DNA of 22,397 nt from a virus, in IMG/VR virus record IMGVR_UViG_3300032053_000576, positions 1-22,397 of that record; one strand, 5' to 3'. The translations under genes were made by a program, and so were the position numbers. Under the pieces are notes generated by a model. It saw only the letters and a list, made by a program, of their open reading frames with translations. It did no database searches and had not been told where the DNA came from. The number at the start of each line of letters is the position of its first letter. Position 1 is the stretch's first letter. Below are positions 2,106 through 18,604 of this stretch, piece by piece.

Positions 2106-2371
2106 ATCTGCTCCTTTACTGCCTTGATAATACTATCATTTTCACCTTCATAAAATCTTTTATGCGTCAGTATCATCTCAGTGGAAATTTCTAATATGTC
2201 GTTTGAAAAGCGGTCTAAGTTGTTTTCTTTTAACAATTTCATTATTTTATTCAACGTTTCTTGTTTCAACTCTGAGTATTGATACTCACATTCGCATTGA
2301 AACTTATATGTCAGTGATAATGCTTCAATTTGTTTTTCTAATTCATCTGTTTTGTTGTTTTTCTTTTTCAT
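2102..2371 (-). CDS. Hypothetical helical protein, 89 aa
   Basis: Coupled to both neighbours through ATGA overlaps. The sequence is Lys/Glu-rich and predicted almost entirely helical (ELEKQIEALSLTYKFQ, LNKIMKLLKENNLDRF). A CEC pair sits in the middle. The composition is AT-rich compared with the helicase and nuclease genes upstream. No family is recognised. Confidence 0.65.
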   Translation of the reverse strand: MKKKNNKTDELEKQIEALSLTYKFQCECEYQYSELKQETLNKIMKLLKENNLDRFSNDILEISTEMILTHKRFYEGENDSIIKAVKEQM

Positions 2372-2772
2372 CTCTTATCTCTTTCCGCCATCGAAAGAAT
2401 GGCGTACCCTCCGATATCTTGCCAGGGGTCCTCTTTGTCTGAATTCGGAGATGCAATACGAAACAATTTGTCAATGATTCTGGTCACGGCTAACACGTCG
2501 GGGTACTGTTCTACGGTAATGCCGTGAGGGTATAGAATCGCCATAAGCTCAGGGCACCGTCGGAAAGAATCGCCATAGTTGAGTTGTTTCTTTTTTAATA
2601 ATTCTGCGATGTGTAACGCGTGTGTATGAAACTCTGTGTAGTCGCTCTCGATGCACTCCCCCGTTTGCTTAACTATTTGAATATGTGAAAACGTAGGTAC
2701 ATATGGGTGCATTGGTGTTGGTTTTGTTCCCATTTCTTCTAGCGTGCATTCTCTTACGATTTTATTGTCCAT
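2368..2772 (-). CDS. MazG/Nmad1-like all-alpha phage protein
   Basis: 134-aa protein. The C-terminal two thirds carry the pattern of small all-alpha proteins related to MazG-type NTP pyrophosphatases and the nucleotide-modification-associated domain Nmad1/DUF1599: YGDSF (66-70), RIIDKLFRI (98-106) and EDPWQDIGGYAIL (114-126). In that family the YGD and the RI-DK helix line a nucleotide pocket. In phages it is associated with nucleotide pools or base modification. No catalytic assignment is made, because the classical EExxE of MazG is not obvious. The first 30 residues are Pro/Thr-rich. It starts 2 nt before the next gene's stop-proximal end. Confidence 0.6.
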   Translation of the reverse strand: MDNKIVRECTLEEMGTKPTPMHPYVPTFSHIQIVKQTGECIESDYTEFHTHALHIAELLKKKQLNYGDSFRRCPELMAILYPHGITVEQYPDVLAVTRIIDKLFRIASPNSDKEDPWQDIGGYAILSMAERDKR

Positions 2773-2773
2773 T

Positions 2774-2962
2774 TTATTTGACCTTTCTTGTTACGAAATA
2801 AATTTCGACTTGATATTTCTCACCGCATTTGCACTCCACGTCAAAATCACCCCATTCAAGCATATGCTCAACCTGCCTGCCTTTTGACTCGGAAAACTTA
2901 AACTCATGGTGGCAGTAAGGGCACTCAATCGTTTCTTTGTAACTATCGTCGTAGTCTCTCAT
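2774..2962 (-). CDS. Small zinc-ribbon protein, 62 aa
   Basis: Starts with an ATGA overlap on the preceding ribbon gene; GTGAGGAG upstream acts as the ribosome-binding site. CPYC (14-17) and CKC (44-46) form a two-knuckle zinc ribbon enclosing a helix-rich insert, and the C-terminus is a strand (YQVEIYFVTRKVK). It resembles the protein of the adjacent upstream gene in size and knuckle spacing, so the two may be diverged duplicates. Function unknown. Confidence 0.65.
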   Translation of the reverse strand: MRDYDDSYKETIECPYCHHEFKFSESKGRQVEHMLEWGDFDVECKCGEKYQVEIYFVTRKVK

Positions 2963-3138
2963 TTTCTTAGCTCCTCACATGAGAAAAATATATCAATTTG
3001 AAATGCTTTATGACATTCTCTGCAAATTATTTCTGTCATATAATCGTTTACGATTTCATTTATTTCATTAAATCGTAAACTCCGCATCCCTATTTTTTCT
3101 CTACAGTGTGGGCACACGATTCTTTCAAGATAGGTCAT
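2959..3138 (-). CDS. Small zinc-ribbon protein, 59 aa
   Basis: This ORF fills the gap between the VRR-NUC gene and the 62-aa ribbon gene exactly, with ATGA overlaps at both ends, which argues strongly that it is real. It encodes CPHC (9-12) and CREC (39-42) separated by 26 residues, the spacing of a treble-clef or ribbon fold, followed by a strand (AFQIDIFFSCEE). The downstream neighbour has the same architecture. Function unknown; a nucleic-acid-binding or protein-bridging role is typical for the fold. Confidence 0.65.
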   Translation of the reverse strand: MTYLERIVCPHCREKIGMRSLRFNEINEIVNDYMTEIICRECHKAFQIDIFFSCEELRK

Positions 3139-3461
3139 TTTCTCATATCCTCGATTTTCCGTTTTGCATCCTCGGCGCCATAGCCGACGATGGTTTCATA
3201 TCCAACGCCCCGTAGGTACACTAACCAATCTGCTTGGTGTGGCTCTGGACATTTTCCCTTCTCTTTCTTCATCTCAATCCATAGCCGCCATTCAGGGATA
3301 AACAGGTCTGGCACTCCCCTTGTTACTCCTTCACACTTTAGGCGATTAGCGACAGAGATTGAACGTTTCTCACCGTTCGGAATGGCGAATATACGCACAG
3401 GCGAATATGTTTGCCGAAACCATTTTACAAATTCCATTTGCTCTTGATGTTCAGATTTCAT
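3135..3461 (-). CDS. VRR-NUC domain nuclease
   Basis: A 108-aa stand-alone VRR-NUC protein, a phage member of the PD-(D/E)XK nuclease superfamily. Visible family marks are EHQEQMEFVKWF at the start, the IPNG turn (27-30), GVPDLF (49-54) supplying the catalytic Asp, and WIEMKKEKG (61-69) supplying Glu and Lys. The C-terminal Q77 and G-VGYETIVGYG segment are also typical. Such phage proteins are thought to be structure-specific endonucleases acting on branched DNA. Fit with the adjacent SF2 helicase and Cas4-like nuclease is good. An ATG at 3497 would add 12 basic residues and overlap the helicase by 23 nt without a clear ribosome-binding site, so 3461 is preferred. Confidence 0.85.
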   Translation of the reverse strand: MKSEHQEQMEFVKWFRQTYSPVRIFAIPNGEKRSISVANRLKCEGVTRGVPDLFIPEWRLWIEMKKEKGKCPEPHQADWLVYLRGVGYETIVGYGAEDAKRKIEDMRK

Positions 3462-3474
3462 TTTGTTCTTTCTT

Positions 3475-5322
3475 TTATTCCATATTTGGATTCCCATTCG
3501 TCATTTCAAAGCAATTAAATTCGTTCAAATTGTTTATATTTATAGATTTTTTAATTATAAAATATTGAAAATAAAATTTATCTACACCACCTGCAACCGA
3601 ACGCCATTCAACGCTCCATCGTGTGCCACAGCGAAGGCAAATACACCGCAGATCTCTTTCTAATGGTGGTATTTTATAATTTTCCATTGCTACAAAATGA
3701 CAATGTGGGCAATTAATACCAGGGCACACAATAGGCCCTTGCATCTCTCTTAGATAGATTCTCCTCGTCACTTCATAAAATTTCCCATTTTTTTTGTACT
3801 TAATTTTCGACGGACACTTTCCTTTTGTCATGTTGCAAGCGATTTCAATCAACATCTCGTTTCCTACTATCGAGACCCCTGCATCCATAGCCATTTTCAT
3901 CAGGCGGTGGCGACCCATGTCGCCTCCTCTCCCCTCGTGAGTAACGGGCAAATATTCGGTTATTGGCGTATCGCTCATGTTCCCATAGTACGTTACTCTG
4001 AGCATATTTTTCCCACTGCCTCTCGAAACGTAATCGTCCCAACGCCAGCCCGTGACATCCATCTCAAGACCACCATCTCCCATAATATCGTCGTCATGGA
4101 GCTTGAAAACCTTGGGTTGCACTGGGAACGCTGCACCGCACACAGGGCAAACTTTCGCCGATAAGTGGACTAGCTCATTGCATTGCTCGCAAACCTTGAC
4201 AGGTGCCTCTCCAGTGCGCTTACCGTGCTTGGTTGGAGGCTGCACATTGGTTATGGGGCCGTGCCTCGATACGTTCCCTGCAAAGTCGAGAAAGAGACAA
4301 TCTTTGACGTGTTCTTTGACCCTCATGCCACGACCCGCCATCTGGCAATGAAGACCCGGGGATTCGGTCGGCCTAAGCATCACGATACAATCGAGGTTTG
4401 GCGCGTCAAATCCCGTGGTCAACACGTTGGCGTTCGTTAGGTGCCTTATCTCGCCAGCTCGAAATTTCTGGATTATTTCGTCTCGCTCTCCTTTTGGCGT
4501 CGCTCCCGTAATGCACGCGCTAGACTCCCCGAGTTCAGACAGGATGTCTCTAATGGCGTTTGCGTGGGCAACACCGCAGCAAAAGTAAAGCAGCGACCGT
4601 CTATCAGTCGCAAGTAGAAGGGTTTCTTCGACCACTTTAGCATTGGATGTTGTGGTATTAACTGCATGTTGTAACTCCTTTTCGATAAATTCCCCGCCTC
4701 GTTTCGCAACCCCTCTCACATCCAGTTGGGCTTGAGTGTGCTTCGACCGAAGCGGGGACAAATAGCCATGATAAATAAGCTCCTCGATTGATACGGGTTC
4801 AATGATGTCTGAAAAAATCGCAGGTTTTTCGGTGATTAACCCGTGGCCTAACCTGTAAGGCGTGGCGGTCAAACCACACACGCACATATTAGGATTAATT
4901 TCTTTCATCTTTAATATAAGCGTGCGATAGCGCCCATTTTCATTGTGCGAAATAAGATGATTTTCGTCGACAATAATTAAATCCGTGTGGCCTAGTTCAG
5001 CCTCGTGACCTGCGAGAGATTGAATCCCTGCAAACGTGATTTGATTAAGCTCTTTTCGTCCCATGCCGGCGCTATAAATTCCTAGCGGTGCTTCAGGCCA
5101 GATGGCGAGGAGCTTTGATGCGTTTTGCTCAATAAGCTCCCTCACATGTGATAACATCAATACGCGCGTCTCGGGCCATTTGGAGATAGCGTCCTTGCAT
5201 AGCTCAGCGATGATATGACTCTTACCTGAGCCTGTAGGCATTACGATACATGGCCAGCCTGAATGGTTCTGGAACCATGCGTAAAATTGGTCGAGAGTGC
5301 GCTGTTGGTAGGGTCTCAACAT
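3475..5322 (-). CDS. DEAD/DEAH-family superfamily 2 DNA helicase with two zinc ribbons
   Basis: A 615-aa ATP-dependent helicase. Visible motifs are Walker A PTGSGKS (29-35), motif II DENH (119-122, a variant of DEAH), motif III TATP (152-155), TTGFDAP (302-308) and motif VI QMAGRGMR (327-334). A zinc ribbon (C378, C381, C392, C395) follows the second RecA lobe. A phage-specific C-terminal domain then carries a second ribbon (C538, C541, C562, C565). The last 35 residues are AT-rich in codons and rich in Asn/Ile/Phe, unlike the body, so this tail may be a late extension. The start overlaps the nuclease stop by one base (TAATG). It probably unwinds or remodels DNA in phage replication or recombination. 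Confidence 0.9.
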   Translation of the reverse strand: MLRPYQQRTLDQFYAWFQNHSGWPCIVMPTGSGKSHIIAELCKDAISKWPETRVLMLSHVRELIEQNASKLLAIWPEAPLGIYSAGMGRKELNQITFAGIQSLAGHEAELGHTDLIIVDENHLISHNENGRYRTLILKMKEINPNMCVCGLTATPYRLGHGLITEKPAIFSDIIEPVSIEELIYHGYLSPLRSKHTQAQLDVRGVAKRGGEFIEKELQHAVNTTTSNAKVVEETLLLATDRRSLLYFCCGVAHANAIRDILSELGESSACITGATPKGERDEIIQKFRAGEIRHLTNANVLTTGFDAPNLDCIVMLRPTESPGLHCQMAGRGMRVKEHVKDCLFLDFAGNVSRHGPITNVQPPTKHGKRTGEAPVKVCEQCNELVHLSAKVCPVCGAAFPVQPKVFKLHDDDIMGDGGLEMDVTGWRWDDYVSRGSGKNMLRVTYYGNMSDTPITEYLPVTHEGRGGDMGRHRLMKMAMDAGVSIVGNEMLIEIACNMTKGKCPSKIKYKKNGKFYEVTRRIYLREMQGPIVCPGINCPHCHFVAMENYKIPPLERDLRCICLRCGTRWSVEWRSVAGGVDKFYFQYFIIKKSININNLNEFNCFEMTNGNPNME

Positions 5323-11007: not shown

Positions 11008-11424
11008 ATGAGCGTCTATTCTGATAAATGCAAATCACTTCGTAAACATATCAACCATGAAAAACCGATACCATATGATAATGAGTATGCACCCACAAAG
11101 CGAATGGCCGAGCTTGTATGTAAAATGTCTTCGTGTGGTGTCCCTATCAGTCAGATTGCCGCCATGTGCAAATTGAATGTAGAAATGACACGGAGATATT
11201 ATGGCGATGATATTGATAGAGGACTCATAGAGACAAGTCATAAAGTAGGTCAAGCGATTGTTGACAAAGCCATTGAAGGTGACATGACAGCGGCCTCATT
11301 GTGGGCTAAAGCAAACATGGGGTGGTCGGATGTTAAACGCCATGAATTTCTGGGTGCGATTAAAATTGACAAGATTGAGCGGGTGATTATCGACCATGTG
11401 ATAAGTGATGGGGAGGAGGAATGA
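11008..11424 (+). CDS. Small-terminase-like helix-turn-helix protein
   Basis: 138 aa from an ATG with AGGAG six bases upstream; an in-frame start at 10954 lies within the primase and lacks a ribosome-binding site. Residues about 31-66 (AELVCKMSSCGVPISQIAAM, then CKLNVEMTRRYY) form a homeodomain-like HTH. Then comes the order ETSHKVGQAIVDKAIEGD-TAASLWAKANMGW, which matches the small-terminase-like phage family (HTH, then A-x6-A-xxG-xxxAA-xW-KA-xGW). If so, it recognises phage DNA for packaging. Being some 4.6 kb from terL and within the replication operon is unusual, so a regulator is the alternative. Confidence 0.6.
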   Translation: MSVYSDKCKSLRKHINHEKPIPYDNEYAPTKRMAELVCKMSSCGVPISQIAAMCKLNVEMTRRYYGDDIDRGLIETSHKVGQAIVDKAIEGDMTAASLWAKANMGWSDVKRHEFLGAIKIDKIERVIIDHVISDGEEE

Positions 11425-11498
11425 AAGAAGATATTTGCTATGGATGTGAATCAATAGAAAGAATTAGAACAAACATATGGAGGAGTCATGGAATATAG
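11421..11498 (+). CDS. Possible 25-aa micro-ORF
   Basis: An ATGA overlap with the preceding stop and a GGGGAGGAGGA ribosome-binding site favour initiation here. The peptide begins MKEDICYGCESIERIR, with one CxxC, and ends 11 nt inside the next gene. It may be a real micro-protein, or serve to hand ribosomes to the next start, which has its own GGAGGAG. Confidence 0.35.
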   Translation: MKEDICYGCESIERIRTNIWRSHGI

Positions 11499-11739
11499 AG
11501 CAGGGGTGACGGAGTCTGTCAAAGACATTGAAAGAGAAATTTGGAATACGGAAGGTCAACTTATGCTAATTGGAGGACTCAAGGAGGATAAAGTTTTACA
11601 CAGAACCATACGCTATGTTAGATTTTGTAGACGGCTTGTTTTTTTACTTGAAAAACGAGGCGCGTTTAAAGATATTGAAGAAATTATGAAAGATGTATAC
11701 GGGAAAGAAGATATTAACGATTATGATTTTGACATATAA
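11488..11739 (+). CDS. Hypothetical helical protein, 83 aa
   Basis: ATG preceded by GGAGGAGTC. The protein is charged and mostly helical (VTESVKDIEREIWNTEGQL, HRTIRYVRFCRRLVFLLEKR), with an acidic end (EDINDYDFDI). It closes the rightward replication operon; a terminator-like hairpin follows 100 nt later. No family is recognised. Confidence 0.65.
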   Translation: MEYRAGVTESVKDIEREIWNTEGQLMLIGGLKEDKVLHRTIRYVRFCRRLVFLLEKRGAFKDIEEIMKDVYGKEDINDYDFDI

Positions 11740-11835
11740 AATTATGTTTTAGATTATCGCCAGCCTGAAAAAATTCCAGCGAAAACTTAAAAATTCCTAG
11801 TCGATTCAATCTATTAAATTTGAGGTGTCCGAATT

Positions 11836-11877
11836 TTAAAAAAACCACCATCAGGAAGGGGGGTTTCTGTCTTTTTT
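11836..11877. terminator. Bidirectional rho-independent terminator candidate
   Basis: AAACC (11842-11846) pairs with GGTTT (11862-11866) and CC with GG inside after one mismatch, with a 9-nt loop. An A-run precedes the stem and a T-rich run (TCTTTTTT) follows it, so either strand ends in a U-tract. It lies between convergent operons, where such a terminator is expected. The stem is short. Confidence 0.55.
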
Positions 11878-11961
11878 CGTAGTCTAGATTTGGTGTGTGC
11901 GATAAAAACATATCACTACATCTTGCGTTAGGTTATCCATGCGTCAAAGCTCCTATCCGTT

Positions 11962-12025
11962 GATTCTAGGCGTTAGTTTTGGGGTCAAGGTACTAGTCTT
12001 AACTCCAAAAGTAAGGGCTAGAATC
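11962..12025. repeat. 64-nt imperfect inverted repeat
   Basis: Arms of 28 nt (11962-11989 and 11998-12025) flank the 8-nt loop GTACTAGT. The outer 8 bp are perfect (GATTCTAG with CTAGAATC). Inside, TTTTGG pairs with CCAAAA and AAG with CTT; 24 of 28 positions pair, plus one G-T wobble. It is too long for a typical operator and has no T-run, so an RNA structure or cruciform/protein site is likelier than a terminator. Confidence 0.7.
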
Positions 12026-12043
12026 GAGAGTGAAGAAGGGAAT

Positions 12044-12178
12044 TGACGAGGGAAGAAAAGGTAAAACACCAACGGGAAAAGATAGGTTACTGGCTATCGG
12101 GAAAGGTTAAGGGAAAAGAGAAGGAAAAGAAGGGGGAAAAATGACGAGGGAAGATAGGGTAAAACGGGGGAAAAGATA
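12044..12178 (+). repeat. Purine-rich tract with repeated module
   Basis: Two imperfect copies of a module starting TGACGAGGGAAGA and ending in GGGAAAAGATA (12044-12083 and 12142-12177) are separated by further GGGAAAAG-like units. Between 12026 and 12182 about five in six bases are purines. Such tracts may form triplex DNA or act as repeated protein sites. Confidence 0.65.
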
Positions 12179-12185
12179 AAAGGAA

Positions 12186-12530
12186 CTATTTCAGCAAATT
12201 TAAAACTACGCCGGAATCGTGAAAATTGCTATCGAAGTAAAATTTAGTCAATGGAACTGACTTTTCTTCATATGCGGATTCACCTGTTTTAAGATAATTG
12301 GCATTGTCAAAAAAATGAATGCTTTTAAAATTCTTTGAAAATTGAATTAGCGTAGTATTTGAACCTGTATCTATACGGTATACTCTCGGTTGAAAAAATT
12401 CAGTTTCTTCATATGAGCGTAAGTTTTGCAGAACCCACCCTAAAGGGTTCTCCTGTGTCGCAACATATCCAACGGTTATTATGTTATTCAAGTGATACCA
12501 TTTTGGATTTGATTCGTATCGGGGTGTCAT
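12186..12530 (-). CDS. Hypothetical protein, 114 aa (accessory island)
   Basis: ATG preceded by GAGGATAAAACA. The sequence is rich in aromatic residues and short strands (KWYHLNNIITVGYVAT, RVYRIDTGSNTTLIQFS, KSIHFFDNANYL), suggesting a small beta-rich domain. No motif or family is recognised. It is the last gene of the ArdC-containing leftward unit and AT-rich like the rest of it. A counter-defence role is possible by position only. Confidence 0.65.
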   Translation of the reverse strand: MTPRYESNPKWYHLNNIITVGYVATQENPLGWVLQNLRSYEETEFFQPRVYRIDTGSNTTLIQFSKNFKSIHFFDNANYLKTGESAYEEKSVPLTKFYFDSNFHDSGVVLNLLK

Positions 12531-12540
12531 TGTTTTATCC

Positions 12541-12786
12541 TCATTTCAAAAGGTTAATAATTTCTTGCGCGCGTTCATTATGATCAATAACACACGTTAT
12601 AATATTACCATCATATGATTTTAATAGTTGCGGCAATAATTCCCGTGGTAATTCTTCGCTAATTGCATTTAGTGCCGCTAGTTTATTTATAGTAGTTTTG
12701 AGCCGAAACATCTTGGCTAGTTCCATTCGTGCCATATATTTGTTGTCTAATGATTCTGATTTTAGCAGGTCAATGATGTTTTGCAT
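12541..12786 (-). CDS. Hypothetical helical protein, 81 aa (accessory island)
   Basis: Its ATG shares a base with the ArdC stop (TAATG), with GAAGAGGTG as the ribosome-binding site. The protein is predicted helical (IIDLLKSESL, MARMELAKMF, INKLAALNAISEEL) and closes with a short strand (NIITCVIDH) and helix (ERAQEIINLLK). Tight coupling to ardC suggests the two are made together. No family is recognised. Confidence 0.7.
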   Translation of the reverse strand: MQNIIDLLKSESLDNKYMARMELAKMFRLKTTINKLAALNAISEELPRELLPQLLKSYDGNIITCVIDHNERAQEIINLLK

Positions 12787-13679
12787 TATATCACCTCTTC
12801 TTTTTCTTTTTCGTTTAGAATATATTTAACGGCTTTCGTAGCGTTTCCACTAGCATGCACAATCAATTTCTTGTCATCCATTAACGCGCGTTTCCAGTTT
12901 TGTATATAGGCTACAGAATTGTTTAGTAGGTTATCATTTAGAATATTACATTTGCAATTTAACATAGCACTACCAATTTCTGCTATCAATTCCTCCTTGC
13001 TGTATGTTTCACTTCCAAAGTTCACGGATTCTGTTACGCCTTTTCTTGCAAGTCTGCTTTTGTGTCCTGTACTATGTACTAATTCGTGGAACATTGTACT
13101 ATAGAAATCATTCTCAGTTGTAAATTGCGCTTTTAGGGGAAGGGTAATCGAATCAATTGAAGGTTGATAAAAAGCACGATTACTATTGATTATATTAACG
13201 GTTGGTCGATTTGGCATGTTTGAAAGAATATATTCACATGCTAGGTTTTCAAATGATTCCTTTATTTCTTTTGTTTCTTTTGTTTTTAGTCCCTGTAGAT
13301 TTTCACATTGTGAAATATTGAACACGTTGAAATATTTCAGAATCGGAACGGTTTTTTCTTCTTTTGTTTCCTTGTCTTTCGTTTTTACCATACTCCAATA
13401 TACAATAAGAGTAGACTTCTCGCCTTTTTTTACACTCCCCTGTAAATCTTTCGCTTGCTTGAATGTTAGCCAAGCATTTTCTGGATACTTTTTCATTTCT
13501 TGGATTAATCCAAGAATCATAATATTAATTCCTTGATATTCCCTACCCGTTGCACCATTATAAGGTGTAGTGGCGTCTGTCCACGGTCTAAGCCAAGGGA
13601 TAATCCCCTTGTTTAAACCATCCAATACAAGGTCTGTTACTGTTTGATAAATGTCTTTTTTTTCAGTTTTATAGTCCAT
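12786..13679 (-). CDS. ardC: ArdC-like antirestriction protein (ssDNA-binding domain plus zincin metallopeptidase)
   Basis: 297 aa. Residues 5-120 match the ArdC N-terminal ssDNA-binding domain (DUF1738-type): IPWLRPW, PYNGATGREYQGINIMIL, AWLTFKQAKDLQGSVKKGEK, then VYWS and KYFNVFNISQ. Residues 185-245 hold a zincin protease motif HELVH (198-202), STGHKSRL, and a downstream EELIAEIGSAML that should give the third zinc ligand. ArdC proteins protect incoming DNA from restriction. The ATG at 13679 has GAGG upstream; a TTG at 13703 is less likely. The gene follows a leader that resembles those of the next two genes upstream. Confidence 0.9.
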   Translation of the reverse strand: MDYKTEKKDIYQTVTDLVLDGLNKGIIPWLRPWTDATTPYNGATGREYQGINIMILGLIQEMKKYPENAWLTFKQAKDLQGSVKKGEKSTLIVYWSMVKTKDKETKEEKTVPILKYFNVFNISQCENLQGLKTKETKEIKESFENLACEYILSNMPNRPTVNIINSNRAFYQPSIDSITLPLKAQFTTENDFYSTMFHELVHSTGHKSRLARKGVTESVNFGSETYSKEELIAEIGSAMLNCKCNILNDNLLNNSVAYIQNWKRALMDDKKLIVHASGNATKAVKYILNEKEKEEVI

Positions 13680-13744
13680 TGATTTTTCCTCGTTTCGGCG
13701 CAATGCCGGTTTGAGATTTTTTTTTGAAAAAATTACCTATAATA
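13680..13744 (-). promoter_or_regulatory. Leader of ardC with GCATTGCGC element
   Basis: Read leftward, TATTATAGG (complement of 13736-13744, -10-like) is followed by ACCGGCATTGCGCCG, which folds into a short CGGC/GCCG hairpin, then AACGAGG. The GCATTGCGC core and the TATAG box recur upstream of the 63-aa gene; the copy is weaker than the other two. Confidence 0.4.
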
Positions 13745-13773
13745 TTAATAACTATTTGTTAGATTTTTCATGG

Positions 13774-13956
13774 TTACAATCCTTTCAATAGTTTGTTAAT
13801 GATGGTTGATTTACTCATAGACAATGATGTGGATTTATGGCAACACACACCGCGATAAAACGTGACTCCTAGGAGCCTACGAGAGATTATAAGGCCAGAG
13901 TATTGCTCGTCGTGGCCAAACACCACGTCGAGATTATTGGATAGGTTATGGCTCAT
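13774..13956 (-). CDS. Hypothetical basic protein, 60 aa (accessory island)
   Basis: Starts two nt after the stop of the 63-aa gene, with GAGG about 12 nt upstream, a long spacing. The peptide is Ser/Leu/Lys-rich with a CC pair (GVCCHKS) and no recognised motif. It could be chance, but its position fits the operon. Moderate confidence only. Confidence 0.45.
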   Translation of the reverse strand: MSHNLSNNLDVVFGHDEQYSGLIISRRLLGVTFYRGVCCHKSTSLSMSKSTIINKLLKGL

Positions 13957-13958
13957 GG

Positions 13959-14150
13959 TTAGTTAGTCCTCATAACGAGGTCATAAGCGTCCCAAGTGTC
14001 ACAGCATATTAGTGTATCGTCCTCGAGGGATACGATGTTATAGGTGGCCGTTATTGGCTCGCCATCTTGACATTGGCATACGGTCCCTGATGCATCAGGA
14101 TGCATCCTGAGGGCTAGCACGTCATCTATGTGGATTAATTTGGTCGTCAT
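13959..14150 (-). CDS. Hypothetical acidic protein, 63 aa (accessory island)
   Basis: ATG preceded by AGGAGTTACCC. The predicted protein is acidic (DDVL, SLEDDTL, CDTWDAYD) with four Cys (CQCQ, CC), and strands alternate with turns, so it may be a small OB- or SH3-like domain. Small acidic proteins are common among DNA-mimic counter-defence factors, but nothing here proves that. The leader is nearly the same as that of the 103-aa gene. Confidence 0.55.
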   Translation of the reverse strand: MTTKLIHIDDVLALRMHPDASGTVCQCQDGEPITATYNIVSLEDDTLICCDTWDAYDLVMRTN

Positions 14151-14220
14151 GGGTAACTCCTAGGTTTTGGCCATTTCGCGCAATGCGTGTCGGCTTGTTA
14201 TGGTTTATTACCAACTATAG
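14151..14220 (-). promoter_or_regulatory. Repeated 5' leader element, copy 2
   Basis: Read leftward: CTATAG, then ATAACAAGCCGACACGCATT, GCGCGAAATGGCCAAAA, and the ribosome-binding site AGGAGTTAC before the ATG. About 35 of 50 positions match the leader of the 103-aa gene, including ATAACA-GCCGA, GCAT, CGC, GGCCAAAA and AGGAGTTAC. GCC and GGC ends can pair into a hairpin just before the ribosome-binding site. Confidence 0.6.
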
Positions 14221-14264
14221 GATTAAATCAAGATAGTTTATAGTCATATCTAGGACTGTATTAA

Positions 14265-14576
14265 CTAATATCCCTCCTCTACTAAAACTCTCCAAATCCT
14301 ATTTTCTAGGGAGACATTACGTCCCCCATTTTTACGATCACGCACAATCACCCCTTCTAGCTGGGGTTCGCTGATCGAGGAGTTGTAATCACTCCTCTTT
14401 ATTACAATATGCCATTTCTTGCTTTTGGCATGTAAACTCCATGCCATTTGGTAATAAGACCCAACACTTGGTTGGGTGTCTTCTTGGTCAAGACGACCAA
14501 GTTCTTGACATTGCACAACATGTTTGCTTATTAAAGACATAATTAATGAATTATTATTCGTTTGAACTCGGCGCAT
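14265..14576 (-). CDS. Hypothetical basic protein, 103 aa (accessory island)
   Basis: ATG with AGGAGTTACTA upstream. It opens the leftward accessory island. It is basic with helices (LIMSLISKHVVQCQEL) and strands (KWHIVIKRSDY, LEGVIVRDRKNGGRNV, IWRVLVEEGY). No family is recognised. Its leader is the best copy of the shared element, and it lies next to the candidate origin. Confidence 0.65.
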   Translation of the reverse strand: MRRVQTNNNSLIMSLISKHVVQCQELGRLDQEDTQPSVGSYYQMAWSLHAKSKKWHIVIKRSDYNSSISEPQLEGVIVRDRKNGGRNVSLENRIWRVLVEEGY

Positions 14577-14645
14577 TAGTAACTCCTGTTTTTTTTTGGC
14601 CGGTTAGCGTTATGCTGGTCGGCCTGTTATGATTAAACCTATATG
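14577..14645 (-). promoter_or_regulatory. Repeated 5' leader element, copy 1
   Basis: Read leftward: CATATAGG, then ATAACAGGCCGACCAGCAT, AACGCTAACCGGCCAAAA, a run of A, and AGGAGTTAC. GGCCG and CGGCC form a 5-bp hairpin. No U-run follows, so it is not a terminator; a translation or RNA-binding control site is more likely. Confidence 0.6.
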
Positions 14646-14873
14646 CAGTTGGCATGCCAGATATTTAGGAATGAGTAAGTGATTGAAAAGATTAGAATAG
14701 TGAATAAGTGAATGACAGAGATATTACAATAAGTGCGTAATTCTTTACACACCACATGTTAGTATTCATATCTTATCAATAGTTTAGATGTGTTGTTTAT
14801 TTTCACAGTGTGTATACTTTTTGCAACACTTTTGGAAGGGATTGGCTCGGATAGTTGACACCATATGGGAGGT

Positions 14874-14899
14874 ATTTATTTTTTTGATTTATTTTTTTG
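14874..14899 (+). repeat. Tandem ATTTATTTTTTTG, two copies
   Basis: Two exact adjacent 13-bp units in an AT-rich stretch. A tandem 7-bp repeat TAGTGTA follows at 14961-14974. AT-rich 13-mers next to initiator sites recall DNA-unwinding elements. Confidence 0.75.
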
Positions 14900-15013
14900 C
14901 CTATCGGTACTACTGACACCATGTTAGAGTATATGGTTAGCTAGTGCTTATTTATATCGGTAGTGTATAGTGTATAGCTAGCATAGAGAGTAAGATAATT
15001 GGTTACAATATGA

Positions 15014-15139
15014 TACCGCACAAAAAGGCACAAAAGCGCACAAATGTGCGTGTGCGTTTTTTGACGCAAAACGTACCGCACAAAAACGCACAAAAGACCG
15101 TAGGTCTTGTGCGCTTGTGCGTGTGCGTTCCGTTTGTGC
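15014..15139. repeat. Iteron-like repeat array, candidate replication origin
   Basis: GCACAAA starts at 15018, 15028 and 15038, then at 15078 and 15088, i.e. at exactly 10-bp steps. Inverted TTGTGC lies at 15107, 15115 and 15134. The block TACCGCACAAAAA recurs 60 bp apart (15014, 15074), and GTGCGTGTGCGTT recurs at 15046 and 15117. Palindromes CGCACA-AA-TGTGCG (15037-15050) and AAGACC-GTA-GGTCTT (15094-15108) are inside. The layout fits initiator-binding iterons; a packaging or partition site is the alternative. Confidence 0.75.
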
Positions 15140-15237
15140 CTCGTAAGTCATTGATATTATTAGAGTGAAAGCTAAGTACTTGAAATTATTAGAACAGACT
15201 TTTCGTAGTACATAGTAGTAGATATATATAACTTAAC

Positions 15238-15309
15238 TTATCCTTATCATAGTGCTAATAGCTAGCCGTGTGCTTTAGGCTAAGGCTTAGGATAAGGATA
15301 ACCTTAGCC
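15238..15309. repeat. Two overlapping inverted repeats
   Basis: TTATCCTTATC (15238-15248) is a perfect inverse of GATAAGGATAA (15291-15301). GGCTAAGG (15278-15285) is a perfect inverse of CCTTAGCC (15302-15309). The right arm of the first lies in the loop of the second, so the hairpins exclude each other or form a pseudoknot. Confidence 0.7.
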
Positions 15310-15530
15310 CATGGTGTCAATGGCTAGCCCGCCTGCCCTCCTCATGGATTGACTTGAGCGGGTGATTGTGGCAGTCTGTTAGTTGCGAGCGATTCTAGAG
15401 GCGATTAGAGCCCCTCCTTGTTATGGCGTAGGGGTTAGGCTAGGCCGTGATTAATCCTAGCGTGTGGCGTGGTAGTTGAGGAGGGGGATAGCCTTGGATT
15501 ATGGAGGGATAAGTGCTTGATATCATTAAC

Positions 15531-15559
15531 TTGACGCAATGTGTTATGGCTGCTAGATA
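15531..15559 (+). promoter_or_regulatory. Candidate promoter of the rightward late operon
   Basis: TTGACG (15531-15536), a 17-bp spacer and TAGATA (15554-15559), with TG one base before the -10 (extended -10). It lies about 50 nt before the first rightward gene. Transcription would cover terL to coat. Confidence 0.45.
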
Positions 15560-15612
15560 TAGGCTAGGCAGGTATCTGGCTGGCGGGGGGGTATACCAAC
15601 GAGGAGGGGTAC

Positions 15613-15876
15613 GTGGTTTGGCATGAACGTATACGTATTGCAGTCGCCATTAAATTTACACTTTTCAAGAAAGATGATTCACACATGGATGCAGAAGCTA
15701 TAAAGAAAATACAAGAAGAATATTTTAAAGTCAAAGGGATGTACAAAGACCTCAGTGAAAAGAACATAGGAATAATAGAATCATTTCTGTTTAACAATGA
15801 TTATATGATAATATCAAGAAAGGAATATAAAGAACTACAAGACCTAAAAGAGTTCTGCGAGAGGTTGGAAAAGTAA
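15613..15876 (+). CDS. Hypothetical helical protein, 87 aa
   Basis: GTG at 15613 has GAGGAGGGG five bases upstream. An internal ATG at 15685 (MDAEAIKKIQEEY, 63 aa) has a weak site, and the shorter form looks more like a natural protein start. Both are possible. The C-terminal part is helical with coiled-coil character (YKELQDLKEFCERLEK). It opens the rightward late unit. No family is recognised. Confidence 0.55.
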   Translation: MVWHERIRIAVAIKFTLFKKDDSHMDAEAIKKIQEEYFKVKGMYKDLSEKNIGIIESFLFNNDYMIISRKEYKELQDLKEFCERLEK

Positions 15877-15877
15877 C

Positions 15878-15952
15878 ATGCAAACCATCCTTATCTACTT
15901 CATGCTATTAGTAACTAAGATAGCCCTATATATATTCCCTATACAACTATGA
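15878..15952 (+). CDS. Possible 24-aa membrane micro-protein
   Basis: ATG two nt after the preceding stop opens a 24-codon frame, almost all hydrophobic (ILIYFMLLVTKIALYIF), enough for one membrane span. A weak GGAAAAG lies upstream. It could be a small membrane peptide or chance in AT-rich DNA. Confidence 0.35.
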   Translation: MQTILIYFMLLVTKIALYIFPIQL

Positions 15953-15986
15953 ACTCGCTCGTCCCATTCTAACAATGGAGAAACAA

Positions 15987-16019
15987 ATGCAGATTAATAC
16001 GCCAGTTCAAAAAAGATAA
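15987..16019 (+). pseudogene. terL 5'-end remnant 1 (10 codons)
   Basis: ATG after GGAGAAACAA opens MQINTPVQKR then stops. The first six residues match the terminase N-terminal pattern M-(Q/K)-I-(S/N)-T-P seen in the next two ORFs. It keeps a working ribosome-binding site. The match is short, so chance is possible on its own, but position and order support it. Confidence 0.45.
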
Positions 16020-16028
16020 AGGTTACTT

Positions 16029-16115
16029 ATGCAAATCTCAACCCCACGCTGGTGTCTCCCTCTTCTCGCTCCAAGTAGATACAAAGGCATTAAGAGCGAA
16101 GGGAGCACGTTATGA
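16029..16115 (+). pseudogene. terL 5'-end remnant 2 / leader peptide (28 codons)
   Basis: This ORF begins MQISTPRWCLPLLAPSRYKG, and 19 of its first 21 residues equal those of terL. At DNA level only 40 of 63 bases match, and 13 of the 15 differing codons are synonymous. It is therefore the start of a diverged, once functional terL, not a recent copy. After codon 21 it reads into the leader of the present terL and its stop overlaps the terL start (ATGA). It may still be translated and couple ribosomes onto terL. Confidence 0.8.
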
Positions 16116-17449
16116 AAATATCAACGCCTAGATGGTGTTTACCATTACTTCAACCTTCCCGCTATAAAGGCATCTACGGCGGTCGAGGCTCTGGCAAATC
16201 TCACTTCTTTGCCGAACTGGGCGTAGAGCACCTCGTTATAAACCCACAACACCGCATGGTGTGCATCCGTGAAGTTCAACGAACCTTAGCCCAATCGGTC
16301 AAGCGGTTAATCGAGGATAAAATAATCTCACTGGATGTTGGGCACCTCTTCCAAGTCACCGAGAATGAAATTAGAACACAAGCCAATGGTTTAATCATCT
16401 TTATAGGTATGCAAGACCGGACGGCTGAAAGTATCAAATCCTTGGAGGGCTATGACATCGCCTGGGTAGAGGAGGCTCAGTCTCTTTCCCAACGGAGCCT
16501 TGACCTCCTCCGTCCAACCATTCGTTCCCCACATTCTGAACTATGGTTCTCTTGGAACCCGCGGTATCCTAGTGACCCAGTAGACCGACTCCTACGTGAA
16601 GACAATCCACTCAACCAAATATCTCAAGCCAAACCACCCCCGGGTACCATAACGGTCAAGGTCAACGGAGATGAAAACCCCTGGTTTCCCAAAATCCTGC
16701 TCACAGAAATGGAGTATGACCGTGGCAGGGATATTGACAGGTATAACCATGTATGGCGGGGAGCCTACTTAACATCCAGTGAAGCGACCGTGTTCCATAA
16801 TTGGTCAATCAGGGAATTTAACCTAATACCAACGGACCATAGCACAAAACCTCCCTATGGTGTGCTTTTGACGAATGGTGCCAGTGGGCCTGTCCGTGTT
16901 GATAATCCAGGCGACGAACCGTTAATCTTTCGCTTTGGTGCCGACTGGGGCTTTGCGAAAGACCCAACAGTGCTCGTGCGGTGTTTCATGATTGATAAAA
17001 CCATCTATATAGATAATGAAGCCTGGTCCATTGGTTGCGAAATCACAGACACACCGAATTTGTTCAAAACCATACCTGAATCCTTACGCTACCCGATTAT
17101 CGCCGATTCAGCACGACCTGAAATTATATCACATATGCGAAAACAACGATTCAACATTATCCCTTCCAAGAAGGGTGCCAAATCCGTCGAGGAGGGCATC
17201 CGTTTTCTGAAAGGCTATGACATGGTGGTGCATCCGAGGTGCAAACACACGATTGATGAGCTAACAACATACTCCTACAAAATTGACCCACATACCAACG
17301 CCATTCTTCCGGTATTGAAGGATACCAAGAACCATGTGATTGATTCGCTGAGATATGCGTTTGAAGGAGTCCGTCGGGTCAAGACACCGAATATACCGAA
17401 GGGGTTTAAGCCGTTGCCGACAAGGAATATGTGGAATAAAAAGAGGTAA
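16112..17449 (+). CDS. terL: Terminase large subunit (PBSX/Terminase_3 type)
   Basis: 445 aa, full length for the family. The ATPase half has Walker A GGRGSGKS (23-30) and Walker B YDIAWVEEAQ (114-123). The RNase H-like nuclease half has acidic residues at D278 (FGADWGFAKDP), D332 (IIADSARPE) and D411 (HVIDSLRYAFE). It pumps DNA into the prohead and cuts concatemers. The ribosome-binding site is GAAGGGAG, within the end of the terL-like leader ORF whose stop overlaps this start. The gene order terL, portal, scaffold, coat is P22-like apart from the inserted methyltransferase. Confidence 0.95.
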   Translation: MKISTPRWCLPLLQPSRYKGIYGGRGSGKSHFFAELGVEHLVINPQHRMVCIREVQRTLAQSVKRLIEDKIISLDVGHLFQVTENEIRTQANGLIIFIGMQDRTAESIKSLEGYDIAWVEEAQSLSQRSLDLLRPTIRSPHSELWFSWNPRYPSDPVDRLLREDNPLNQISQAKPPPGTITVKVNGDENPWFPKILLTEMEYDRGRDIDRYNHVWRGAYLTSSEATVFHNWSIREFNLIPTDHSTKPPYGVLLTNGASGPVRVDNPGDEPLIFRFGADWGFAKDPTVLVRCFMIDKTIYIDNEAWSIGCEITDTPNLFKTIPESLRYPIIADSARPEIISHMRKQRFNIIPSKKGAKSVEEGIRFLKGYDMVVHPRCKHTIDELTTYSYKIDPHTNAILPVLKDTKNHVIDSLRYAFEGVRRVKTPNIPKGFKPLPTRNMWNKKR

Positions 17450-17481: not shown

Positions 17482-17635
17482 AAACAAAGAACAACAGCAG
17501 TGCACGAGAATGTAGCGCACTTTAAGAAAGAATGCAAGAAATAAACGATAGCCTATCGACCATTCTATCAACATCTATCAACCATGACGATATAAAACCA
17601 TCAAATGTACAACTTTAACCCGATTGAGAAAAATT

Positions 17636-18604
17636 ATGATTGAAAACATTGTTTCATTAAACCAACTAAAAAACGTGTCACGCTTCTTTATATTCGGACA
17701 AGGACTACTTGCAGACGATTTACAAATGTTCTTATCTGGCGCGTTTCCCGGCCGTTTCTTTGGATTCATCGGTATGGATGATGGAAGGCATGGACCAAGT
17801 CAATACTCTATATTCCCGATTCACTACGCAACGGGAATGCTTTGCAAGGGTGACTTCGTTTTTTTATGTGAAGAGAATCAATCTGTAGTCAATACCCTAC
17901 AAGCATTACAGGTTCGTATGGGGTATGGTGAGAATCTTGTGACTATCTATCGGACGTATGAGCTACCGACGTTCGTGATGTTTTTGGAGAAATATGCAAA
18001 AAATTATTGCTTTGCTTTAGACATCGGCGCGAATCACGGACTGACAACGGCTCTTATGGCGTATTACTGTAACCATGTTCACGCTTTTGAACCGTCTCCT
18101 ATCCTGCAAGGCTCCATAGGACATCATACAAAATATTGTCAGAATGTAACGATTCATGAGATGGCGGTGTCAGATGTGGATGGGCCAATAACCGTCTATG
18201 ACGTAGACGGCTCCAATACAACCATGAGACCGACAGCGGCAGGTGACTTTTATGACGTTCAATCGACGACAATAGACACGTTTTGTAAGACAAAAAATGT
18301 TAAACCAAAATTAATCAAAATCGACGTGGAGGGAGTTGAAAGTGAAGTCATTTTGGGAGCTATGAAAGTGATTGAAGCGTGTAGACCTGTCTTATTTTTA
18401 GAACACCCCCTATTGAACGCGGGTGCATATGCGATTGACAAGGATAAGGCTACGAAAGTATTAAACTTTCTAAAATCAGAGTACACATTGTTAGCGTATC
18501 CTGATTTGAATAGCCTATGTGATTGTGATGACATAGGTATGCCGCTTGACGATTACGTTCTGACATACAAGACATTTCCGACAAATATAGCAGCGGTTGT
18601 CTAA
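17636..18604 (+). CDS. FkbM-family methyltransferase inserted in the head module
   Basis: 322 aa. Residues 1-110 form a Rossmann-like domain (RFFIFGQGLLADDLQMFL, then FFGFIG and FVFLCEE) resembling sugar-nucleotide binding domains. Residues 120-320 match the SAM-dependent FkbM methyltransferase: LDIGANHGL (128-136), FEPSP (151-155), VAVSD-like MAVSD (176-180) and KIDVEGVE (228-235). FkbM enzymes O-methylate sugars and related hydroxyls. ATG at 17636 is preferred to TTG at 17624; the ribosome-binding site is weak. A gap of some 185 nt after terL and about 100 nt before portal, with hairpins in both, suggests a self-contained insertion (moron). Target may be host surface glycan or phage component. 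Confidence 0.85.
   Translation: MIENIVSLNQLKNVSRFFIFGQGLLADDLQMFLSGAFPGRFFGFIGMDDGRHGPSQYSIFPIHYATGMLCKGDFVFLCEENQSVVNTLQALQVRMGYGENLVTIYRTYELPTFVMFLEKYAKNYCFALDIGANHGLTTALMAYYCNHVHAFEPSPILQGSIGHHTKYCQNVTIHEMAVSDVDGPITVYDVDGSNTTMRPTAAGDFYDVQSTTIDTFCKTKNVKPKLIKIDVEGVESEVILGAMKVIEACRPVLFLEHPLLNAGAYAIDKDKATKVLNFLKSEYTLLAYPDLNSLCDCDDIGMPLDDYVLTYKTFPTNIAAVV

Follow-up and report, generated by a model that had tools for sequence, protein, structure and literature searches.

A codon-diverged copy of the beginning of terL just upstream of the gene in a phage record, and its possible role as a translational-coupling leader

The terL locus and the copied gene start

The window, meaning the whole stretch of DNA analysed, was the 22,397-base virus record IMGVR_UViG_3300032053_000576. 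Its phage has a portal of the P22 type, and its large terminase subunit is of the Terminase_3 type. A putative small terminase gene (terS-like) was assigned from its position after the primase-helicase and from a C-terminal motif resembling that of the ORFs which immediately precede terL in relatives. The features of the locus were as follows.

11008..11424, plus strand: terS-like gene, C-terminus KIERVIIDHVISDGEEE; no Pfam or PHROG match
11425..16111, unstranded: 4.7-kb block between terS and terL, minus-strand genes included
12786-13703, minus strand: ArdC-like anti-restriction gene within the 4.7-kb block
15878..15952, plus strand: ORF0, a 24-aa hydrophobic peptide
15977..15980, plus strand: GGAG, Shine-Dalgarno-like sequence of ORF1
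15987..16019, plus strand: ORF1, MQINTPVQKR and stop; six-residue match to terL-type starts
16018..16022, plus strand: AAAGG, Shine-Dalgarno-like sequence of ORF2, predicted open, 6 nt before the ATG
16029..16115, plus strand: ORF2, candidate leader cistron MQISTPRWCLPLLAPSRYKGIKSEGSTL and stop; its first 21 residues copy the TerL N-terminus and are followed by KSEGSTL; its stop overlaps the terL start
16052..16071, plus strand: predicted hairpin 5' arm (anti-Shine-Dalgarno), leader codons 9-15, GTGTCTCCCTCTTCTCGCTC
16094..16108, plus strand: predicted hairpin 3' arm GAGCGAAGGGAGCAC, holding the terL Shine-Dalgarno sequence AAGGGAG (16099-16105)
16112..16115, plus strand: ATGA, leader stop overlapping the terL start
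16112..17449, plus strand: terL, terminase large subunit (Terminase_3 / Terminase_3C), start MKISTPRWCLPLLQPSRYKGIYGGR

In the phage collection, no DNA similar to 11425-16300 was found beyond a 70-nt terL stretch, and the terS end (11400-11440) showed no remnant of a terL start. The same leader arrangement was present in only one public record, IMGVR_UViG_3300031999_006459 (4,336 bases; hereafter L003), whose TerL is 96-97% identical to that of the window. Within the 4.7-kb block, a long noncoding region (14577-15612) lies between divergent gene blocks and contains GCACAAAA repeats at 15014-15127. Terminator-like hairpins were more numerous there than in shuffles, and the region was mostly 96-100% identical in L003, a conservation higher than that of terL. 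Promoter-like sites were no more frequent than in shuffles, and an Rfam search gave no match of note. Downstream, terL is separated from the P22-like portal gene by an FkbM-type methyltransferase gene (17624-18604), which is absent from that place in the annotated relative MW202867. ORF0 differed from its L003 counterpart (2081-2155) by 5 synonymous and 2 nonsynonymous changes in the first codons, by inspection. Since the differences are mainly synonymous, ORF0 probably encodes a genuine, very small protein.

Rechecking confirmed what the original prediction gave as coordinates and counts for ORF1, ORF2, terL and the ATGA. ORF2 agrees with the first 21 terL codons at 19/21 amino acids and 40/63 nucleotides; 15 codons are changed when read by eye, 13 of them synonymously. 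The TerL N-terminus matched ORF2 at an E value of about 1e-9 (tblastn). When the terL start was made to drift neutrally until 23 differences had accumulated, a mean of 7.6 of the 21 residues was retained, with a maximum of 14 in 20,000 trials. When both peptides were back-translated with randomly chosen synonymous codons, the resulting sequences agreed at 43 +/- 2.7 of 63 bases, so that the observed 40/63 indicates saturated synonymous sites. This saturation and the drift simulation together exclude a drifting, nonfunctional local duplicate. Both copies therefore diverged under protein-level selection, which acted either on separate terL alleles before they were joined or on a selected leader since.

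ORF1 and ORF2 had been read as serial fossil copies of the terL 5' end, each keeping a ribosome-binding site. The second point held: all three starts, that of terL included, have a Shine-Dalgarno match of at least 4 nt at 6-9 nt upstream, compared with 18% of window ATGs. The series is less secure, as it depends on the six residues of ORF1, but when the 151 nt upstream were Markov-shuffled, a start of the ORF1 type (M[QKE]I.TP) arose at a frequency of only 6e-5, which makes MQINTP improbable by chance. For ORF2, "fossil" may be the wrong word if the hairpin described below is functional.

The arrangement is unusual. Among 2,579 ORF starts in the fetched loci, no other true case of a gene-start copy upstream of its own gene was found, L003 representing the same event; three further matches were set aside, two as low-complexity and one as an exact tandem repeat. 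The last, a short duplication at an ORF start (MAARKLGLASLPVMVA twice), lies at 1467-1567 of its locus (L182). No further copy of a relative's own TerL N-terminus was found upstream of its terL. Apart from L003, degenerate searches of viral and genome contigs for M-x-I-x-TPRWCLP starts returned nothing but terL genes that had an extended start and lacked an upstream copy.

Start overlap and predicted closure of the terL ribosome-binding site

In 134 of the 148 relatives, terL begins within the stop codon of the ORF before it or overlaps that stop, and the preceding gene is usually terS. MW202867 shows this gene order: repA, methyltransferase, a DNA-binding protein at the terS position, terL and a P22-like portal. 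Where terS is not the neighbour, a small ORF of 18-94 codons often ends 4 nt into terL (L127, L128, L130, L145, L148, L167, L173 and L174). As a rule, then, this terL overlaps an ORF upstream of it, and coupling of terL seems to be kept in relatives that lack a neighbouring terS. In the window, terS lies 4.7 kb from terL, and the stop of ORF2 re-creates the stop/start overlap.

Folding predicted a hairpin over the terL Shine-Dalgarno sequence that sits wholly within the leader ORF, at -18.9 kcal/mol for the isolated hairpin. The unpaired probability of the terL Shine-Dalgarno sequence was 0.006 (0.004-0.018 across six sequence contexts). None of the other starts among the 35 tested in the window had a predicted accessibility as low, the next being 0.164, and the value also lay below those of the terL starts of all 148 relatives (minimum 0.049). 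The leader's own Shine-Dalgarno sequence was predicted open, with an unpaired probability of 0.55-0.66. Closure as tight or tighter was reached at a frequency of 0.008 in synonymous recodings of the leader that left its peptide unchanged and 0.006 when only the 5' arm codons were recoded. The corresponding values were 0.0065 for base shuffles, 0.008 for other window DNA placed before the linker and 0.003 for linker shuffles. The closure was noticed during the analysis, and the p of about 0.006 is to be discounted several-fold.

When a ribosome footprint was masked at leader codons 21-28, the terL Shine-Dalgarno sequence was freed in the prediction (0.89-1.0, and 1.0 at codons 22-28); it was also largely freed by a footprint at codons 10-12. 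Swapping resident terL codons into the leader weakened the closure (0.29 or 0.15). The overall folding energy of the leader was unremarkable (MFE z -0.87), so the argument rests on closure of the Shine-Dalgarno sequence and not on general structure. The hairpin is identical in L003, the only relative that carries it, and thus offers no covariation.

The original prediction had suggested that ORF2 may act as a coupling leader peptide for terL. This suggestion, made from the ATGA overlap, is strengthened by the hairpin, which the earlier reader had not seen and which is itself a folding prediction. The locus shows the stop/start overlap of a coupled leader (ATGA), together with a predicted accessible ribosome-binding site of its own and, by folding, an occluded one downstream.

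We propose, with slightly better than even confidence, that ORF2 is a recombination relic of the start of a terL allele that was recruited as a translational-coupling leader of terL. The separation from terS, the copy and the overlap are all read directly from the DNA; translation of the leader, its coupling to terL and the order in which the steps took place are what we infer. The 4.7-kb block would have parted terL from terS and abolished the usual terS-terL overlap. Recombination in a variable region would then have left a diverged copy of 21 terL codons upstream of the resident gene, and this copied start, with its own ribosome-binding site, would have become joined, in frame, to the linker preceding terL, ending at the ATGA. 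Leader codons 9-15 are predicted to pair with the terL Shine-Dalgarno sequence and close it. A ribosome translating the leader would melt the hairpin, a release that the footprint predictions support, and would terminate on the terL start. terL would then be translated by reinitiation or by entry of a new ribosome.

The main rival is an exchange scar without function, to which we give a considerable chance, though short of even. ORF1 and ORF2 would then be recombination leftovers at the terL boundary, and the hairpin and ATGA overlap would be fortuitous. Any ORF open in that frame stops at the ATGA, so there is a substantial chance of this overlap arising unaided, and the p for closure is about 0.006 before its discount for looking. 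The lineage is moreover a fine-scale mosaic. Just upstream of the leader, segment 15641-15905 is replaced between the window and L003, with about 50% identity inside and near 100% on both flanks. The phage also encodes a Sak4-like annealing protein, an exonuclease and a single-strand binding protein (SSB), and phage recombinases often swap short diverged segments by relaxed recombination, small gene fragments being common (PMC3945230). However, closure of the Shine-Dalgarno sequence to 0.006 would be crippling for an essential gene that had no opener, for which a ribosome on the leader is the obvious candidate, and the terL stop/start overlap is nearly universal in relatives. In the replaced segment, a small-gene slot, the products of the window and L003 share similar motifs (IISRKEYKEL / VISNKDYQEL).

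Origin of the ORF2 copy

Exchange of terL segments, in line with the exchange at the terL boundary originally proposed, was supported by the comparison with L003. Between the window (16138-17404) and L003 terL (2315-3673), 84 synonymous and 13 nonsynonymous codon differences fall in tight clusters with identical tracts between them, and one such patch (16138-16151) covers TerL codons 9-14. The lineage therefore does swap short, synonymously diverged terL segments. These patches imply that the window terL has synonymously diverged alleles which are swapped a short stretch at a time, and this makes import of ORF2 credible. The leader and its surroundings run for about 230 bases without any difference between the two records. 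A leader kept at constant spacing in relatives, co-diverging with terL, had been named as the sign of a conserved leader rather than exchange scars; only L003 carries it at the same spacing, but in identical form and not co-diverging with terL.

Derivation from another phage lineage, and not from local duplication, was likewise part of the earlier reading. It stands insofar as a recently drifted duplicate is excluded (at most 14/21 amino acids in simulation), but no terL clearly matched ORF2 better than the resident gene did. Among about 200 loci, the nucleotide matches to ORF2 were 42/63 for L003 terL and L151 and 40/63 for the resident terL, with saturation at 43 +/- 2.7, and no donor terL was found. 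On this sequence evidence, a foreign-lineage origin is plausible.

An old local duplication is an improbable alternative. ORF2 would have come from the resident terL, with its peptide kept by selection while the codons drifted, perhaps because identical direct repeats recombine away. The peptide might even act itself, for instance by mimicking the TerL N-terminus and competing for TerS or another packaging partner. At the protein level the ORF2 peptide is indeed nearest to the resident terL, with which it shares M-x-IST...C...KGI features absent from the other fetched terL genes, and the saturated synonymous sites are explained equally well by prolonged purifying selection and by import. However, the synonymous patch at TerL codons 9-14 between the window and L003 indicates that diverged alleles circulate, and import needs no long selection on the peptide; an active peptide and its partner are purely hypothetical.

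An assembly chimera, suggested by metagenome contigs with two near copies 83 nt apart, is very improbable given the identical junction in a second contig with different flanks, as is frameshift translation from ORF2 into terL, which was rejected on inspection for want of a slippery heptamer at the ORF2 end.

Implications and comparison with known systems

The near-universal stop/start overlap, even without a neighbouring terS, points to a constraint on coupled terL translation in this phage group. If ORF2 is a recruited coupling leader, the locus would be a testable case of modular phage genomes mending gene regulation after insertions, in which the lost partner of an essential packaging gene was apparently replaced by a scrap of the gene itself. 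A more specific form of this idea is tentative and, in our judgement, rather unlikely: that a copy of the gene's own 5' end, codon-diverged for direct-repeat stability, is a dedicated leader doubling as the anti-Shine-Dalgarno arm and restoring the coupling lost when terS and terL were separated. In that case, coupling of terL would be a requirement that phages re-establish by improvisation. A literature search, conducted largely outside subscription journals, found no paper describing a leader copied from the start of the gene it precedes.

The RNA-unfolding and termination-reinitiation models of translational coupling are established (PMC12548453, PMC6728339). As in known coupling at ATGA overlaps, the upstream ORF in the window ends at the downstream start, and the buried downstream ribosome-binding site is here a folding prediction. 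What appears new, from the sequence, is that the upstream ORF is a short leader copied from the 5' end of the very gene it precedes. The terS-terL overlap of related phages also places the terL start over an upstream stop, whereas in the window 4.7 kb separate terS from terL, and the ORF that overlaps terL is copied from the start of terL itself. At the mosaic boundaries of phages, relaxed homologous recombination likewise exchanges short diverged segments, and small fragments of genes are common (PMC3945230); the fragment in the window differs in lying upstream of an intact resident copy and in running in frame into a coupling stop. The engineered bicistronic design (BCD) is similar in that a short first cistron contains the Shine-Dalgarno sequence of the second, with overlapping stop and start (PMC5995908). 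In contrast to BCD leaders, the candidate leader of the window is natural, is found in a phage, is 28 aa long, derives from its target gene and includes the 5' half of the predicted closing hairpin.
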